This document shows, in pieces, positions 57,543 to 64,000 of a stretch of 64,000 bases of DNA (the first letter of the stretch is position 1; the number at the start of each line of letters is the position of its first letter). This stretch comes from Sphingobium sp. 15-1 (GTDB taxonomy: Bacteria; Pseudomonadota; Alphaproteobacteria; Sphingomonadales; Sphingomonadaceae): contig NZ_JABXJG010000001.1 of assembly GCF_013375535.1 (NCBI RefSeq), positions 1 through 64,000 on the forward strand, in the 5' to 3' direction. A model generated the notes under the pieces. That model had not been told where the DNA came from. It searched no databases and saw only the letters and a program-made list of their open reading frames with translations. Made by a program: the position numbers and the translations under genes.

Positions 57543-58514
57543 ATGGGCAGGATCGGTATCCTTATCATCAATCTCGGCACGCCGGACGGGCCCGATCCGG
57601 CGTCGGTGCGGCGTTATCTGGCCGAATTCCTGTCCGACCCGCGGGTGGTGGAGATTCCGCAACTGCTCTGGCAGCCGATATTGCGCGGCCCGATCCTGCT
57701 GACCCGGCCGAAGAAATCAGCCCATGCCTATCGCCAGGTGTGGATGAAGGAGGGATCGCCGCTCGCCGTCTACACCCGCGACACGGCGCGGGGATTGCAG
57801 GAAAGGCTGGGATCTGCCGCGATGGTGGATTGGGCCATGCGCTATGGCAATCCCTCCATCGGCGCGCGGCTGGCGGCGATGACGGCGGCGGGGTGCGACC
57901 GCATATTGCTGGCGCCGCTCTATCCCCAATATTGCGCGGCGACGACGGCCACCGCGCTCGACGCCGCTTATGCGGCGCTGGGCAAGATGCGGTCGCAGCC
58001 GGCGGTCCGCACCCTGCCGCCTTATTACGCCGATCCTGCTTATATAGAGGCCCTGCGTGCATCGACGCAGGCGCAGCTCGCCGCGCTGGATTTCGCGCCC
58101 GACCTGTTGATCGCCAGTTTCCATGGCATGCCGGAGCGGACGCGGCAATTGGGCGACCCTTATCGCGACCAATGCGTGGAGAGTGCGCGCCTGCTGGGCG
58201 AGGCTCTGGGGCGCGAGGTGCGGGTCACGTTTCAATCGCGTTTCGGTCGCGCGAAATGGCTGGGTCCGGCGACCGATGCGGTGCTGCGTCAGCTCCCCTC
58301 CGAAGGTGTCGGAAATGTTGCTGTCCTGACCCCCGGATTCTCGGCGGATTGCCTGGAAACCCTAGAGGAAATCGCCCTGCGCGGCAAAGAGGATTTTATC
58401 GCTTCCGGTGGTAATAATTTTGTCCATTTGAGTTGTTTGAACGCGTCTGCGGACGCTATGAACCTATATGTGAATCTGGCCCGGCGCGAACTGGCCGGTT
58501 GGTTGGAGAGGTAA
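57543..58514 (+). CDS. hemH: Ferrochelatase
   Basis: HemH inserts Fe(II) into protoporphyrin IX, the last step of haem synthesis. The 323-residue protein has INLGTPDGPDPASVRRYLAEF at the N-terminus, ASFHGMPERT with the active-site His, and LTPGFSADCLETLEEI with the conserved Glu. The length is normal. It begins 5 bp after the molybdopterin-subunit gene, so the two are probably cotranscribed, although no functional tie is evident. Confidence 0.97.
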   Translation: MGRIGILIINLGTPDGPDPASVRRYLAEFLSDPRVVEIPQLLWQPILRGPILLTRPKKSAHAYRQVWMKEGSPLAVYTRDTARGLQERLGSAAMVDWAMRYGNPSIGARLAAMTAAGCDRILLAPLYPQYCAATTATALDAAYAALGKMRSQPAVRTLPPYYADPAYIEALRASTQAQLAALDFAPDLLIASFHGMPERTRQLGDPYRDQCVESARLLGEALGREVRVTFQSRFGRAKWLGPATDAVLRQLPSEGVGNVAVLTPGFSADCLETLEEIALRGKEDFIASGGNNFVHLSCLNASADAMNLYVNLARRELAGWLER

Positions 58515-58550
58515 GTTTCGTCCCGTCATTTTTTGCTGAGGAGAGCCACT

Positions 58551-59273
58551 ATGAGCAAGGTTGCAGTCGTCACGGGCGGAACGCGTGGAATTGGCGAGGC
58601 GATCAGCCTGGCGCTCAGGGAGATGGGGTTCACGGTCGCCGCCAATTATGCGGGCAATGACGCAAAGGCGCAGGCCTTTTCGGACAAGACGGGGATCGCA
58701 TCCTTCAAATGGGATGTGGGCGATCACCAGGCCTGTCTGGACGGTTGCGCACAGGTGGCTGAAGCGCTCGGCCCGATCGATGTCGTCGTCAACAATGCGG
58801 GCATCACGCGGGACGGCGTGCTGGCGAAGATGAGCTTCGACGACTGGAACGAAGTGATGCGCATCAATCTGGGCGGTTGCTTCAACATGGCGAAGGCGAC
58901 CTTCGGCGGGATGCGGGAGCGTGGTTGGGGCCGTTTCGTCAATATCGGATCAATCAACGGGCAGGCGGGCCAATATGGCCAGGTCAATTATGCCGCCGCC
59001 AAGTCGGGCATTCATGGTTTCACCAAGGCGCTGGCGCAGGAGGGCGCGAAATATGGCGTCACCGTCAACGCCATCGCGCCCGGCTATATCGACACCGACA
59101 TGGTCGCCGCCGTTCCTCCGGCCGTGCTGGAGAAGATCGTCGCCAAGATTCCGGTGGGCCGTCTGGGCCATGCCGATGAAATCGCGCGCGGCGTGGCCTT
59201 CTTCTGCAGCGAGGATGGCGGCTTCGTGACCGGCAGCACGCTGTCGATCAACGGCGGGCAGCATATGTACTGA
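58551..59273 (+). CDS. phbB: Acetoacetyl-CoA reductase (SDR family)
   Basis: PhbB reduces acetoacetyl-CoA to (R)-3-hydroxybutyryl-CoA for polyhydroxybutyrate. The 240-residue short-chain dehydrogenase has VTGGTRGIG (cofactor-binding), NNAGITRDG, the active-site Ser (IGSINGQAG) and YAAAK. The ATG at 58551 is preceded by GAGGAGAGCC. No phaA or phaC is adjacent in the window, so a broader 3-oxoacyl reductase role is possible. The stop overlaps the next ATG by one base (TGATG). Confidence 0.9.
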   Translation: MSKVAVVTGGTRGIGEAISLALREMGFTVAANYAGNDAKAQAFSDKTGIASFKWDVGDHQACLDGCAQVAEALGPIDVVVNNAGITRDGVLAKMSFDDWNEVMRINLGGCFNMAKATFGGMRERGWGRFVNIGSINGQAGQYGQVNYAAAKSGIHGFTKALAQEGAKYGVTVNAIAPGYIDTDMVAAVPPAVLEKIVAKIPVGRLGHADEIARGVAFFCSEDGGFVTGSTLSINGGQHMY

Positions 59274-59548
59274 TGGAGGAAGAGGGCGCTTCCGATGACG
59301 CCTCGGCGTTGGCGGGATCGCCCTTCGCTCCGCCCATCAAGCGCAGCGTGACCATTGCGGGCCATCAGACCGCGATCAGTCTGGAACCGATCTTCTGGCA
59401 AGCCCTCCGTGCGGTCGCCGCGCGGGAGGGCTTGCCTGTCAATGCGCTGATCGCGCGCATCGACGTCGCGCGCATGGCGGCGGCCGATCCCCCCAATCTG
59501 GCGAGCGCTATAAGATGCTGGCTTTTCAGGGATAATATGCAGCCATGA
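59273..59548 (+). CDS. Small ribbon-helix-helix-domain protein
   Basis: The 91-residue product has a stretch typical of small RHH proteins of sphingomonads (KRSVTIAGHQTAISLEPIFW, then QALRAVAAREGLPVNALIARI). It is likely DNA-binding, though a target is not evident. It overlaps phbB by one base, implying coupled translation. A Fur-like operator region follows, 11 to 50 bp downstream. Confidence 0.75.
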   Translation: MEEEGASDDASALAGSPFAPPIKRSVTIAGHQTAISLEPIFWQALRAVAAREGLPVNALIARIDVARMAAADPPNLASAIRCWLFRDNMQP

Positions 59549-59559
59549 GATAATAATTA

Positions 59560-59600
59560 TTCGCAATAGCATTGACTATGCGAACGAGTCGCAATAGCAG
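59560..59600 (+). promoter_or_regulatory. Fur-like operator and promoter of the siderophore receptor
   Basis: TTCGCAATAG (59560-59569) and TGCGAACGAGTCGCA (59579-59593; arms TGCGA/TCGCA) flank TTGACT (59572-59577), a -35-like hexamer followed 17 bases later by TAGCAG. The same arrangement occurs at 63289-63330 and a single dyad at 62424-62442. Repression by Fur or a similar iron regulator is inferred. Confidence 0.6.
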
Positions 59601-59633
59601 AAGCCCCAAGGTTCAAAAAGGGGTTCTGTTTTC

Positions 59634-62222
59634 ATGTCCAAAGCAATGTCACGTCCTTCCTTCCTGGCGCTGAGTTGCGTCGGCGCGATGGCCTTCGCCT
59701 CCACCGCCCATGCGCAAAATGCTACGCAGGACGGCGCGCAGGGCGCCAAGCTCGGCGGGATGACGGTCACCGACACGGCGATCGACGAGTCACCGATCAA
59801 GGTCGAGAAGGCGGAATCGCCCAAATATACCCGGCCGCTGCTGGACACGCCGCAGACCATCATGGTGATCGGCAAGGAAACCATCCAGCAGCAGAATTTG
59901 CTGACGCTGCGCGAAGTCCTGTCCACCGTGCCCGGCATCACCTTCGGCGCGGGCGAGGGTGGCTTCGGCTATGGCGACCGCATCATCCTGCGCGGCCAGG
60001 ACGCCAAGAACGACGTCACGGTCGACGGCGTGCGCTCCGGCGCGTTCCTGAACCGCAACGAAGTCTATAATATCGAGCAGGTCGAAGTCACCAACGGCGC
60101 CAATTCGGTCATGAACGGCGGTGGTTCGGTCGCGGGCACGATCAATCTGGTGACGAAGCGTCCGCTGGCCGATGATCAGACCATTTTGAATGCAGGCATC
60201 GGCACCGACAACTATTATCGCGCGACCATCGATACCAACAAGCGGGTCAACGATCTGATCGCTGTGCGCCTCAACGTCGTCTACCACAGGAACGACGTAC
60301 CGGGCCGCGATGTCGAGGATTATGAACGCTGGGGCATCGCGCCCGCCATTACCATCGGTATCGACGGGCCGACCAGCCTGACACTCCAGGGCGAATATCT
60401 GGATGACAAGGCAATGCCGCAATATGGCATTCGTTACTTCCCGGCGATGGGTGGCATCGTCAAGGACTTCGATCGGTCGGGCTATTATGGTTTCGCCAAT
60501 CTCGACCATCAGGACAGCAAGACCAAGTCGCTTCAGGCGATCTTCAGCCATGCCTTCAGCGACACGGTCAAGATTCGCAACCTGACGCGCTACGAACATA
60601 TCCGCCAGGACACGGTGACCAGCCAGCCGAACGGCGTCTTCTGCCTCGACAACGGCACGGCGGGCGGCTTCAATCCCGATACCGGCGGCGCGTGTACGCT
60701 GCGCGTCGGATCGACCGCCGCAGGGCAGACGCTCACCATTCCGGTCGGCTATTATGTCCCGACCGGCGGTCGCGGCAACCAGCGCTTCATCACCAATGAG
60801 ACCGCCTATGACCAGATCGACCTGAGCGCCGATTTCGACACCGGCGGCATCGGCCATACGCTGGTCGTCGGCGGCTCGGCCTTGTGGGAGCGCTACGATC
60901 AGTTGCAGGGCAGCATCGGCCGCACCGCCACCGGTTTCGATCCCTATGCCGCGCCGTTCAGCGCACCGGCCAGCGGCAATGGCACGGCCACAGCGACCTA
61001 TAGCGCCGGGAGCAGCCTTGGCTTCTACCTTCCGCTCGTCAACATAGCCGATCCGTCTTCGGGCATCGTCGGCCCGGCCGCCACCAGCGGCCTGGCGCGC
61101 GTCTATGGCAGCAACGCTTATGTCGGCCCGGTCAACTTCATCCTCGGCGCGCACAATGTTGGCGAGCAGACCAGCTATGCCGCCTATCTGTTCGATACGA
61201 TGAAGTTCACCGACTGGTTCGAGATCAACGGCGGCCTTCGCTACGAGAGGGTGAAGGGCTTCAACCGGACCTTCAGCTATGTGACCGCGCCGGGCGCCAC
61301 GCTGGGCCAATTGTCGGTGCCGGCGGCGGGAGCGACCAATCCCACCTATTTGAAGGTGGAGGATAATCTCTTCTCCTTCCGCGTCGGCGCGGTCGTGAAA
61401 CCGACCCCGAACACCAGCCTCTATGTCGCCTATGGCAACAGCAAGTTGCCCTCCAAATCCTCGGTCGACGGAAGCTGCACGGCAGACAACGCATCGGGCG
61501 GCAGCGGCACCTGCAACGTCAAACCGGAAACGACCAAGAATTACGAGATTGGCGCCAAGGCGGACCTGTTCGAAAAGAAGCTGCTGCTGACCCTGGCCCT
61601 GTTCCGCAACGACCGCGACCAGATCAAGGTGGTGTCGGGCGATCCGACCCTGCCCGATCAGGCGACGGATGGCTTCCAGCGGGTGGAGGGCGTGTCCTTC
61701 GGCGCGTCCGGCAACATCACCAGCAACTGGACGATCTCCGCCAACTACATGTACCTCAAGAGCAGGATCAAGCAGGGCGTTTCAGACTATTGCCTCGCCC
61801 ACCCCGGCGCGACCGATCCGGCGGCAGGCACTTGCGCCAACAGCGCCGCCTTCCCCGATCCGACGGCGGGCTATGCGCTCACCAACACGCCCAAACATTC
61901 GGGCAGCCTGTTCACCACCTACCGCTTCGGCTTCGGTCTGGAACTGGGCTATGGCCTGACCTATCAGGGCAGCTTCCTGCTCAACCAGCCGACTCTCGCC
62001 CAGTTGGTCGCCAACAGCTATGTCGGCTATCGGGTGCCGAGCTACACCATTCACCGCTTCATGGCCTCCTATCCGATCACGGAGAATCTGAAGGCGCAGG
62101 TGAATGTGCAGAACTTCACCAATGAGAAATATGTGACGACGGTGCGCAACAACACCAACAATAGTTGGGCACAGCCGGCCCCGACCCGGTCGGCGGTGTT
62201 CAGCCTCAACTATATGTTCTGA
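59634..62222 (+). CDS. TonB-dependent siderophore receptor
   Basis: The 862-residue receptor has a signal peptide (SFLALSCVGAMAFASTAHAQ), a TonB-box-like GGMTVTDTAI, and a plug with LREVLSTVPGITFGAGEGG, GDRIILRGQDAKNDVTVDGV, IEQVEVTNGANSVMNGGGSV and AGTINLVTKRP. This is the catecholate-type siderophore receptor pattern (Fiu/CirA-like). The barrel ends with a normal aromatic strand (AVFSLNYMF). The specific siderophore is unknown. It is the first gene of the Fur-like cluster, and a clear terminator hairpin follows. Confidence 0.93.
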   Translation: MSKAMSRPSFLALSCVGAMAFASTAHAQNATQDGAQGAKLGGMTVTDTAIDESPIKVEKAESPKYTRPLLDTPQTIMVIGKETIQQQNLLTLREVLSTVPGITFGAGEGGFGYGDRIILRGQDAKNDVTVDGVRSGAFLNRNEVYNIEQVEVTNGANSVMNGGGSVAGTINLVTKRPLADDQTILNAGIGTDNYYRATIDTNKRVNDLIAVRLNVVYHRNDVPGRDVEDYERWGIAPAITIGIDGPTSLTLQGEYLDDKAMPQYGIRYFPAMGGIVKDFDRSGYYGFANLDHQDSKTKSLQAIFSHAFSDTVKIRNLTRYEHIRQDTVTSQPNGVFCLDNGTAGGFNPDTGGACTLRVGSTAAGQTLTIPVGYYVPTGGRGNQRFITNETAYDQIDLSADFDTGGIGHTLVVGGSALWERYDQLQGSIGRTATGFDPYAAPFSAPASGNGTATATYSAGSSLGFYLPLVNIADPSSGIVGPAATSGLARVYGSNAYVGPVNFILGAHNVGEQTSYAAYLFDTMKFTDWFEINGGLRYERVKGFNRTFSYVTAPGATLGQLSVPAAGATNPTYLKVEDNLFSFRVGAVVKPTPNTSLYVAYGNSKLPSKSSVDGSCTADNASGGSGTCNVKPETTKNYEIGAKADLFEKKLLLTLALFRNDRDQIKVVSGDPTLPDQATDGFQRVEGVSFGASGNITSNWTISANYMYLKSRIKQGVSDYCLAHPGATDPAAGTCANSAAFPDPTAGYALTNTPKHSGSLFTTYRFGFGLELGYGLTYQGSFLLNQPTLAQLVANSYVGYRVPSYTIHRFMASYPITENLKAQVNVQNFTNEKYVTTVRNNTNNSWAQPAPTRSAVFSLNYMF

Positions 62223-62229
62223 CCGGTCC

Positions 62230-62280
62230 AGGGCATGTTCGATTTGCTGAACCGGAACATGCCCTGATGGTCTTTTGTTT
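62230..62280 (+). terminator. Rho-independent terminator of the siderophore receptor gene
   Basis: AGGGCATGTTC (62230-62240) and GAACATGCCCT (62255-62265) are perfect 11-base arms around a 14-base loop, followed by TCTTTTGTTTT. It starts 8 bp after the receptor stop codon. Confidence 0.8.
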
Positions 62281-62423
62281 TCCGCGATTTCCTGACGGTC
62301 AGATGGTCCGGCTTGAAATCGCTTCGGTCCCCCCGGCACTCGTCCCTTGCCGGGGGAAACGGGCGGGCGGCGATGCACTCCTCTCCTCCTCGGGTCGCCG
62401 CCCGTCCGGTCCCTTCTTAAAGG

Positions 62424-62442
62424 TGCGATTGATTCGCATTAG
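62424..62442 (+). promoter_or_regulatory. Fur-like operator upstream of tonB
   Basis: TGCGATTGATTCGCATTAG contains perfect TGCGA/TCGCA arms around TTGAT and resembles the operator sites at 59579 and 63309. It lies 52 bp before the tonB start. Confidence 0.6.
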
Positions 62443-62493
62443 AGTTCTCGTTATGACCGGGCCTTCCCGGCACGGCCGCAAAGGGGATCTGGC

Positions 62494-63252
62494 ATGCTTC
62501 GCGTAGCGGATAGATTTGGTGAAGAGGCGGTGGATGGCCCGTTCGTCTCGCCACCGGCAGCTCTGGCGCTTGTTTCCAGCGCGGCCATGCAACCCGGCGC
62601 GCCGCCCGCCCGCTATGGAGCGCGGAGCGGGGTGAATGTGCCGGCGGTCGTTTTGATCGTGCTGCTTCACGCTGTCCTCATCGCCGCGCTGATCCAGGCC
62701 CGGCAGCATGTGCAGCGCGTGCGGGAAACGCGCTTGTCGGTGGTGAACCTGCTGCCGCCCCCCCCTCCACCGGCGGCTGATACGCCGCCTCCGCCTTCGC
62801 AACCGCAGATCGTCGCGCCGCCGCCGCTGGTGCAAGTGCCCGTGCCGCCCATGCCGACCGTGGCCACCACGCCGGAAAGCCTGCCGCCCGCGCCGACAGC
62901 TCCCCCCGCGGCGATCTCCGCTCCGCCCGCTCCGCCGGCCGCATCGCCAGGCGCCAGCATCGTTCAGGGCGGCGACCTCGGCACGCAGATGGTCGCGGGC
63001 AAGCCGCCCCGCTATCCGATCGAAAGCCGCCGCAAGCGGGAGCAGGGCACGGTCGTCCTCGCGCTGACGCTGGGCCTCGACGGCGGGGTGGACAGTCTGG
63101 ACATCGCCCGGAGCAGCGGCTTCCCCCGGCTCGACAATGCGGCCCGCGACGCGGTGCGCGGCTGGCGCTGGAAGCCTGTGATGCGCGACGGGCAGGCCTT
63201 CCGCGTGAAAGGGGTCGTCGAAATCCCCTTCATTCTGCGCACCGACGGATAA
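62494..63252 (+). CDS. tonB: Energy-transducing protein TonB
   Basis: TonB transmits proton-motive force energy to outer-membrane receptors. The 252-residue protein has a 49-residue N-terminal stretch before the single membrane helix (PAVVLIVLLHAVLIAALI, with His 59 matching the functional His of E. coli TonB). A Pro-rich periplasmic spacer follows (about 88-155), then the C-terminal domain (PPRYPIESRRKREQGTVVLA, near 173-190). The ATG at 62494 has AAGGGGA upstream. It stands between two siderophore receptors and shares their operator type; exbB/exbD are not in the window. Confidence 0.94.
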   Translation: MLRVADRFGEEAVDGPFVSPPAALALVSSAAMQPGAPPARYGARSGVNVPAVVLIVLLHAVLIAALIQARQHVQRVRETRLSVVNLLPPPPPPAADTPPPPSQPQIVAPPPLVQVPVPPMPTVATTPESLPPAPTAPPAAISAPPAPPAASPGASIVQGGDLGTQMVAGKPPRYPIESRRKREQGTVVLALTLGLDGGVDSLDIARSSGFPRLDNAARDAVRGWRWKPVMRDGQAFRVKGVVEIPFILRTDG

Positions 63253-63288
63253 AAAAGGGTCTGCCTTTTCCGCTTGCGCTGCTTTTGT

Positions 63289-63330
63289 TTCTCAATAGTG
63301 TTTGACTCTGCGAACGCGTCTCAATAACTG
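63289..63330 (+). promoter_or_regulatory. Fur-like operator and promoter of the second siderophore receptor
   Basis: TTCTCAATAG (63289-63298), TTGACT (63302-63307), TGCGAACGCGTCTCA (63309-63323) and TAACTG 17 bases after TTGACT repeat the layout at 59560-59600. The two regions are clearly related. Confidence 0.6.
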
Positions 63331-63368
63331 GGCCTCCAAAATAAGGCAAGAAAAGGGGACCGACCGCC

Positions 63369-64000
63369 ATGCAATCCGATAACCGCCGACGCTCGGCGCC
63401 CGCCTTTCTGGCGCTTGGCTGCGTCGGGGCCTTCGCCTCGAGTCCCGCTTTGGCGATCGACAAGGCGGACGAGGCGGCGGTCGACCAGCAGGCGGACGCA
63501 GGCCAGATCGTCGTCAACGGCCGCTACAATCAGGAAATCATCTCGCCCAAGGCGACCGCGCCGCTGATCAACACGCCCCGGTCGATCGCGATCGTCAGCG
63601 AAAATGTGATCAAGGACACGGGCTCCGCCACACTGGTCGAGGCGCTGCGCACCGTGCCGGGCATCACCTTCGGCGCGGCGGAGGGCGGCAATCCGATCGG
63701 GGACCGGCCTTTCATCCGTGGCTTCGACAGCCAGGGCAGCACCTATGTTGACGGCGTGCGCGATACCTCGGCCCAGTCGCGGGAAACCTTCGCGATCGAG
63801 CAGATCCAGGTGGTGCGCGGTTCCGACAGTTCGCTGGGCGGGCGCGGCAGCGCGGGCGGTTCGCTCAACATCATCACCAAGCTGCCCCGCGACCGCGATT
63901 TCGCCGCCATGGACCTGTCCTACGGCACCGCCGACTACAAGCGGATCACGGCGGACATCAATTACAAGCTGACCGACTCGGTCGCCTTCCGCGTGGCGGG
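63369..64000 (+). CDS. TonB-dependent siderophore receptor, N-terminal part (window-truncated)
   Basis: The visible 210 codons give a signal peptide (PAFLALGCVGAFASSPALA), TonB-box-like GQIVVNGRYNQ, and a plug with LVEALRTVPGITFGAAEGG, GDRPFIRGFDSQGSTYVDGV, IEQIQVVRGSDSSLGGRGSA and GGSLNIITKLP. It is a paralogue of the 59634 receptor in layout and leader. The gene runs past the window end; nothing can be said of the barrel. Confidence 0.92.
   Translation, partial: MQSDNRRRSAPAFLALGCVGAFASSPALAIDKADEAAVDQQADAGQIVVNGRYNQEIISPKATAPLINTPRSIAIVSENVIKDTGSATLVEALRTVPGITFGAAEGGNPIGDRPFIRGFDSQGSTYVDGVRDTSAQSRETFAIEQIQVVRGSDSSLGGRGSAGGSLNIITKLPRDRDFAAMDLSYGTADYKRITADINYKLTDSVAFRVA

Follow-up and report, generated by a model that had tools for sequence, protein, structure and literature searches.

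The first 64 kb of contig NZ_JABXJG010000001.1 from the 5.82-Mb genome of Sphingobium sp. 15-1, referred to as the window (the whole stretch of DNA that was analysed), end in two genes for TonB-dependent receptors, termed receptor 1 and receptor 2, with a tonB gene between them. The dyads upstream of all three genes are very probably operators of the iron-sensing repressor Fur, with both Fur binding and the response to iron being predicted from the sequence. The fixed 28-bp geometry of a double box in front of receptor 1 is the only mildly new point of the locus. A first-pass annotation had recognized three Fur-like operators here, one per gene, as parts of a single iron-responsive regulon. 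All three sites exist and the reading is right in kind, but it is incomplete in the number of boxes, which amounts to five with two of them weak, and too confident about tonB.

The dyads are found at the places noted before, namely TGCGA-5-TCGCA at 59579-59593 and 62424-62438, and TGCGA-5-TCTCA at 63309-63323. A palindromic de novo motif search in a non-redundant set of 51 regions upstream of receptor 1 orthologs, from which the window was excluded, converged on the 19-bp motif AtTGAGAATcATTCTCAaT, the classic Fur box. The resulting profile, applied to the 64-kb window, ranked 59549-59567 (21.7 bits), 59577-59595 (18.5 bits) and 62422-62440 (18.2 bits) first to third, followed by 17815 (11.3 bits), 63307-63325 (11.0 bits) and 63278-63296 (7.1 bits). 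In 60 simulated windows of the same length no site reached at least 16 bits, and sites of at least 10 bits occurred at 0.77 per window; as predicted 19-bp sites, the proximal receptor 1 box and the tonB box are clearly far beyond chance. The fourth-ranking candidate, 17815, falls within the reading frame of a dnaJ-like gene and was not considered further. Each of the three genes is thus preceded by a 19-bp inverted repeat of the Fur-box type, which is weak at receptor 2 (11.0 bits). In addition to the motif itself, its conservation, its genome context and the presence of a true fur gene bear out the assignment of the dyads to Fur.

Upstream of receptor 1, two boxes are arranged around the following elements:

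59549 to 59567, unstranded: distal Fur box of receptor 1, GATAATAATTATTCGCAAT, 21.7 bits, rank 1, overlooked by the first-pass annotation
59572 to 59577, plus strand: probable -35 hexamer TTGACT between the two boxes; in 50 of the 58 promoters of orthologs, TTGAC is immediately followed by the proximal box
59577 to 59595, unstranded: proximal Fur box of receptor 1, in the promoter spacer, 18.5 bits, rank 2
59595 to 59600, plus strand: weak -10-like hexamer TAGCAG, 17 bp past TTGACT, a poor match to TATAAT

The layout of a box, a 9-bp gap ending in TTGAC and a second box, with the boxes 28 bp apart, recurs in 38 of these 58 promoters (28 of 48 in the more stringently thinned set), while none of 48 gene-body controls of equal length contained a box. 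These counts cover 58 of 60 loci, two having been omitted where the match begins after residue 20; the sets of 51 and 48 are non-redundant subsets obtained with two cut-offs. Among the 50 orthologous promoters with TTGAC, the -10-like hexamer starts with TA in all 50 and with TAGC in 42. In three further receptor 1 promoters (L092, L105 and L074), the distal and proximal boxes are spaced by 57 bp, roughly double the 28 bp.

With at most two mismatches allowed, a 35-letter pattern describing the 28-bp arrangement had a single hit in each of 68 of the 94 genomes from the genus and was present in 6 of 119 genomes across the family, the genome of the window being included in both sets; its reversed form was absent from the 94 and the 119 alike. 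These figures describe occurrences of the pattern, irrespective of the gene downstream, and the difference between genus and family indicates that the double-box module is mainly a trait of the genus. In the genome of the window, the half consisting of TTGAC plus box is matched perfectly at two places only, the promoters of receptor 1 and receptor 2, and with two mismatches at six more places, as opposed to two in the control. Literature on tandem Fur boxes, Sphingobium Fur boxes and alphaproteobacterial regulators mentioned no 28-bp pair in titles and abstracts, full texts being mostly outside this check. Tentatively, and with considerable reservation, the double operator may be regarded as a conserved module, occurring as a single copy per genome in most of the species sampled from the genus, which is bound cooperatively by two dimers, confers tighter control than at single-box genes and has a spacing that is itself under selection.

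The promoter of tonB features a single strong box:

62422 to 62440, unstranded: tonB Fur box, 18.2 bits, rank 3
62429 to 62434: probable -35 hexamer of tonB, TTGATT, at the centre of the box; TTGATT is found there in 28 of 39 orthologs
62452 to 62457, plus strand: -10-like hexamer TATGAC of tonB, 17 bp past TTGATT, starting with TA in 31 of 39 orthologs

The arrangement in front of receptor 2 resembles that of receptor 1, with one base more between the boxes (29 bp) and with weaker boxes, and is much alike in the three other loci fetched that possess receptor 2 (L056, L061 and L082):

63278 to 63296, unstranded: degenerate distal Fur box of receptor 2, 7.1 bits, rank 6, likewise overlooked before
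63302 to 63307, plus strand: probable -35 hexamer TTGACT of receptor 2, assigned from the sequence
63307 to 63325, unstranded: proximal Fur box of receptor 2, 11.0 bits, rank 5

In these three loci the proximal box is nearly unchanged (11.0-13.8 bits), and the distal one scores 4.9-12.2 bits. The -10-like hexamer TAACTG, 17 bp past TTGACT, is a poor match to the consensus. Hence, of the shared promoter noted earlier for the two receptors, the TTGACT hexamers (59572-59577 and 63302-63307) are present, but the downstream TAGCAG and TAACTG agree with TATAAT at three and two of six positions, respectively. In the same way, the earlier placement of the operator inside the promoter spacer applies to the receptor boxes, which follow TTGACT, but not to tonB, where the box covers the probable -35. 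A sigma-70 scan of the plus strand from 58480 to 63500 called no promoter, neither receptor -10 included. The -35-like hexamers hold a fixed register to the boxes across orthologs, but the -10 boxes of the receptors are weak, and the overlap of boxes and promoters is a prediction. A recent duplication of both receptors together with their promoters is unsupported, the proteins being about 30% identical and the promoters sharing mainly the operator block.

According to the proposed mechanism, dimers of Fe(II)-loaded Fur would bind under iron-sufficient conditions and thereby block access to the promoters of all three genes, whereas their departure upon iron shortage would allow the outer-membrane iron receptors to be made. 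At receptor 1, two dimers on boxes 28 bp apart, with the -35 in the gap, would bury the whole core promoter; at tonB, the box would cover the -35; and at receptor 2, the same layout would operate with weaker boxes at 29-bp spacing. We infer in this scheme the occupancy of the boxes, repression, the iron response, two dimers per promoter and the -35 and -10 assignments alike.

In Sphingobium sp. SYK-6 (Fujita et al. 2020; available part of PMC7376174), Fur box-like sequences precede tonB2 and fiuA, and Fur1 binds both promoters in gel shifts. Iron shortage raised fiuA 8-fold and tonB2 1.6-fold, and reporter data support a read-through from the tonB2 promoter that is blocked at the fiuA box. By analogy, tonB of the present locus may be barely iron-controlled, because tonB2 changed only 1.6-fold, and read-through from tonB might similarly be blocked at the box of receptor 2. 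Hence, it is a realistic possibility, against which we lean somewhat, that only the receptors are truly Fur-controlled, with the tonB box acting as a weak modulator of a nearly constitutive gene and the receptor 2 box mainly stopping read-through from tonB. Features of the tonB-receptor 2 interval are in line with this possibility, as the two genes are 116 bp apart, the sequence between them folds like its shuffled counterparts (z 0.03), and the terminator scan performed at chance level (4 sites versus 3.8 expected, one of them at the tonB end, 63211-63227). On the contrary, with 18.2 bits the tonB box is strong, it overlies the probable -35, and receptor 2 possesses a TTGACT of its own. Moreover, tonB2 and the tonB gene considered here may not be equivalent, given that no tonB among ten sphingomonads was more than 40% identical to tonB2 according to the same part of that account (PMC7376174).

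With respect to the regulator, the earlier suggestion to look for a fur gene led to two Fur-family genes, one of which encodes a true Fur. This protein (L001, at C1:1193 kb) shares 88 of 120 residues with its nearest solved Fur, that of Magnetospirillum (4raz, MgFur), and retains Tyr56 and Arg57 as well as the metal-site residues His33, His90, Glu108 and His125. The roles of the contact residues, and the requirement of MgFur Lys15 in vivo, derive from the available part of PMC4506495. A Fur with conserved DNA- and metal-contact residues is thus present in the same genome, with Lys15 replaced by Arg. The profile is also compatible with boxes from other bacteria, as all 22 published putative boxes of A. 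baumannii (those in the available part of PMC3055841) score 14.3-25.2 bits. The second Fur-family protein (L002), whose existence is what allows for another regulator, has among its best solved chains 7dh7, for which the name says no more than fur family, and then 4mtd, a zinc uptake regulator, and from its sequence looks like a zinc regulator. That L002 or some other metal sensor controls the cluster, in response to a signal other than iron, is accordingly very improbable: besides this resemblance to zinc regulators, the motif is a Fur box, and in SYK-6 a fur2 mutant left the tonB2 and fiuA promoters unchanged (available part of PMC7376174).

Beyond the window, pattern searches revealed boxes upstream of feoA (17.0 bits) and of an Rrf2 regulator gene (17.9 bits) together with one further box of 15.4 bits without an assigned gene. 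Sites outside the window stem from such pattern searches and from receptor regions, not from a whole-genome profile scan. Because feoA has a box too, the Fur regulon, as judged from these sites, is probably not confined to the cluster. The genome contains 126 matches to the Plug domain, a very large receptor set, in comparison with three TonB_C genes above the cut-off, the tonB of the cluster among them. Of the 126, 125 receptor regions were scanned, the last match, a fragment beside another one, being omitted. Sites of at least 14 bits occur in five of them, namely those of receptor 1, of receptor 2 (by the tonB site ahead of it) and of L210, L149 and L150. The box is therefore rare among receptors and no general receptor feature; L210, L149 and L150, with boxes of 14.4-18.6 bits, are candidates for the remaining iron receptors.

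Several observations weigh against Fur control of the cluster. The bare dyad does not stand out: with one mismatch allowed it occurs 4 times in the window versus 5.3 expected, and the genome scan proposed earlier for TGCGAN5TCGCA yielded 9 sites versus 6 for the reversed pattern in the 5.8-Mb genome, which is hardly an enrichment. Several of these sites lie inside long reading frames (e.g. L005 and L007), and this dyad was rejected as a genome-wide marker; TGMGAN5TCKCA performed better (17 versus 7 in the control), while the stricter palindrome TRMKARTNAYTMKYA remained barely above its control (4 versus 2). The proximal box of receptor 2 is weak alone, since its 11.0 bits fall beside the 11.3 bits of the dnaJ site, and the sites of receptor 1 are not independent of a profile trained on receptor 1 orthologs, as opposed to those of tonB and receptor 2, which are. 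Moreover, the consensus box of E. coli reaches no more than 12.6 bits, and the Lys15 of MgFur is changed, conservatively, to Arg. Outside the window, the feoA and Rrf2 boxes end 5 and 10 bp, respectively, before the assumed start codons, and strong boxes occur at genes not clearly involved in iron uptake: a box of 20.7 bits at nuoA; one of 17.0 bits, followed by AGC (L006, C1:956384), upstream of a DUF6628 gene without evident iron link; and, at a methyltransferase gene of no evident iron role (L017, C1:2929781), the strongest box outside the window (25.3 bits). Some of the outside boxes fit iron control, while a strict interpretation is weakened by those at the methyltransferase and DUF6628 genes. 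In spite of the unenriched 10-letter dyad and the near-chance receptor 2 site, a mere effect of chance or composition is as good as dismissed, being already contradicted by three 19-bp sites of at least 18 bits, in contrast to none of at least 16 bits in the 60 simulated windows, and by conservation across genera and within the genus.

The genes predicted to be under these putative operators, together with a possible terminator, are the following:

59634 to 62222, plus strand: receptor 1, a TonB-dependent, putative siderophore receptor of 862 amino acids with Pfam Plug and beta-barrel domains
62229 to 62266, plus strand: possible terminator after receptor 1, a 12-bp hairpin followed by a T-rich stretch, minimum free energy -22.9 kcal/mol
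62494 to 63252, plus strand: tonB, 252 amino acids, Pfam TonB_C 3e-20
63369 to 64000, plus strand, running on to C1:65861: receptor 2, Fiu/PiuA type, 830 amino acids, best solved chain 5nec

Among the matches listed, the best receptor 1 ortholog is 90% identical and occurs in Sphingobium fuliginis; the nearest solved chains are 5fok, 5nec, 5fp1 and Fiu 6bpm, whose best stretches span the plug and the early barrel. Receptor 2 is a Fiu/PiuA-type siderophore receptor by full-length similarity to solved PiuA/Fiu-type receptors (5nec, E 4.8e-181; 5fok, 1.9e-157; Fiu 6bpm, 1e-76), with transport of ferric catecholates being predicted only; 5nec, 5fok and 5fp1 we take to be Piu-type receptors. The hairpin after receptor 1 has a z of -1.99 relative to shuffled sequences, 6 of 200 of which fold equally well, and was not called by the terminator scan, which accepts loops of 3-8 only, the loop here being 14.

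The gene order at the right end of the window is hemH, a short-chain dehydrogenase gene, a small ribbon-helix-helix gene, receptor 1, tonB and receptor 2. Past the end follow a Sel1-repeat gene (sel1) and then a piuC-like gene for a PKHD-type 2-oxoglutarate (2OG)-Fe(II) oxygenase (piuC/cciO; L020:10607-11290, PKHD_C and 2OG-FeII_Oxy_3). On the opposite strand beyond the window lie an ApbE gene and a gene for a PepSY-like membrane protein, which form a cluster convergent with piuC (L020:11444-14763) with frames of 298 and 176 amino acids between them; this cluster neighbours piuC in several relatives as well and might, as a guess, constitute a periplasmic reductase system.

In 32 of 35 loci where both genes could be measured, piuC lies 10-64 bp downstream of tonB; for the other loci of the 60, the stretch that was fetched either has no tonB, no piuC or neither gene, or is incomplete. 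Receptor 2 and sel1 stand between tonB and piuC only in L056, L061, L082 and the present locus, from 63369 of the window onward (L020:7369-10613). The presence of the pair in 3 of 35 loci, as opposed to tonB-piuC adjacency in 32 of 35, suggests that receptor 2 and sel1 were inserted together with a Fur promoter of their own. In another group of loci (L097-L104, L107, L109 and L112), piuC comes directly after a receptor 1 relative of 42-48% identity, and the fetched stretches yielded no match to tonB.

The general picture of iron control remains unchanged by these data, which point to ordinary iron control with good sequence support. The cluster singles out, from about 125 receptor genes in a sphingomonad, the few that probably serve iron; the 19-bp motif, having been checked on published boxes, can be used to predict Fur regulons across the genus; and the conserved 28-bp double box provides a natural series on how repression depends on the distance between Fur dimers flanking a promoter.

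In comparison with characterized bacteria, this is a known type of iron-uptake locus. Like SYK-6, as described in the available part of its account rather than by sequence (PMC7376174), it unites tonB, a Fiu-like receptor and a putative hydroxylase gene, and both tonB and the receptor gene are preceded by a Fur box-like sequence. It differs in that a hypothetical gene is named upstream of tonB2, whereas receptor 1 occupies this place here, in that paired boxes go unmentioned in that part of the SYK-6 account, and in that sel1 separates receptor 2 from the oxygenase gene. In Caulobacter crescentus, iron homeostasis is supported by a Fur-regulated pair consisting of CciT, a receptor related to Fiu/PiuA, and the oxygenase CciO (available part of PMC12004947). 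As in cciT-cciO and piuA/fiu-piuC, a Fiu/PiuA-type receptor is located near a 2OG-Fe(II) dioxygenase, here in the order receptor 2-sel1-piuC, but the present cluster includes tonB and two receptors rather than one; the order receptor-tonB-piuC is found in many relatives. Fur sites of Caulobacter overlap -35 and -10 elements (available part of PMC3751524). Finally, the DNase-footprinted feoAB1 operator of MgFur contains ATCGCAACTCATTCGCAAT and fits the motif at 14.2 bits, although one protected operator is described for MgFur in the available part of PMC4506495, as compared with the double box of receptor 1, and its Lys15 is Arg in the Fur of this genome.

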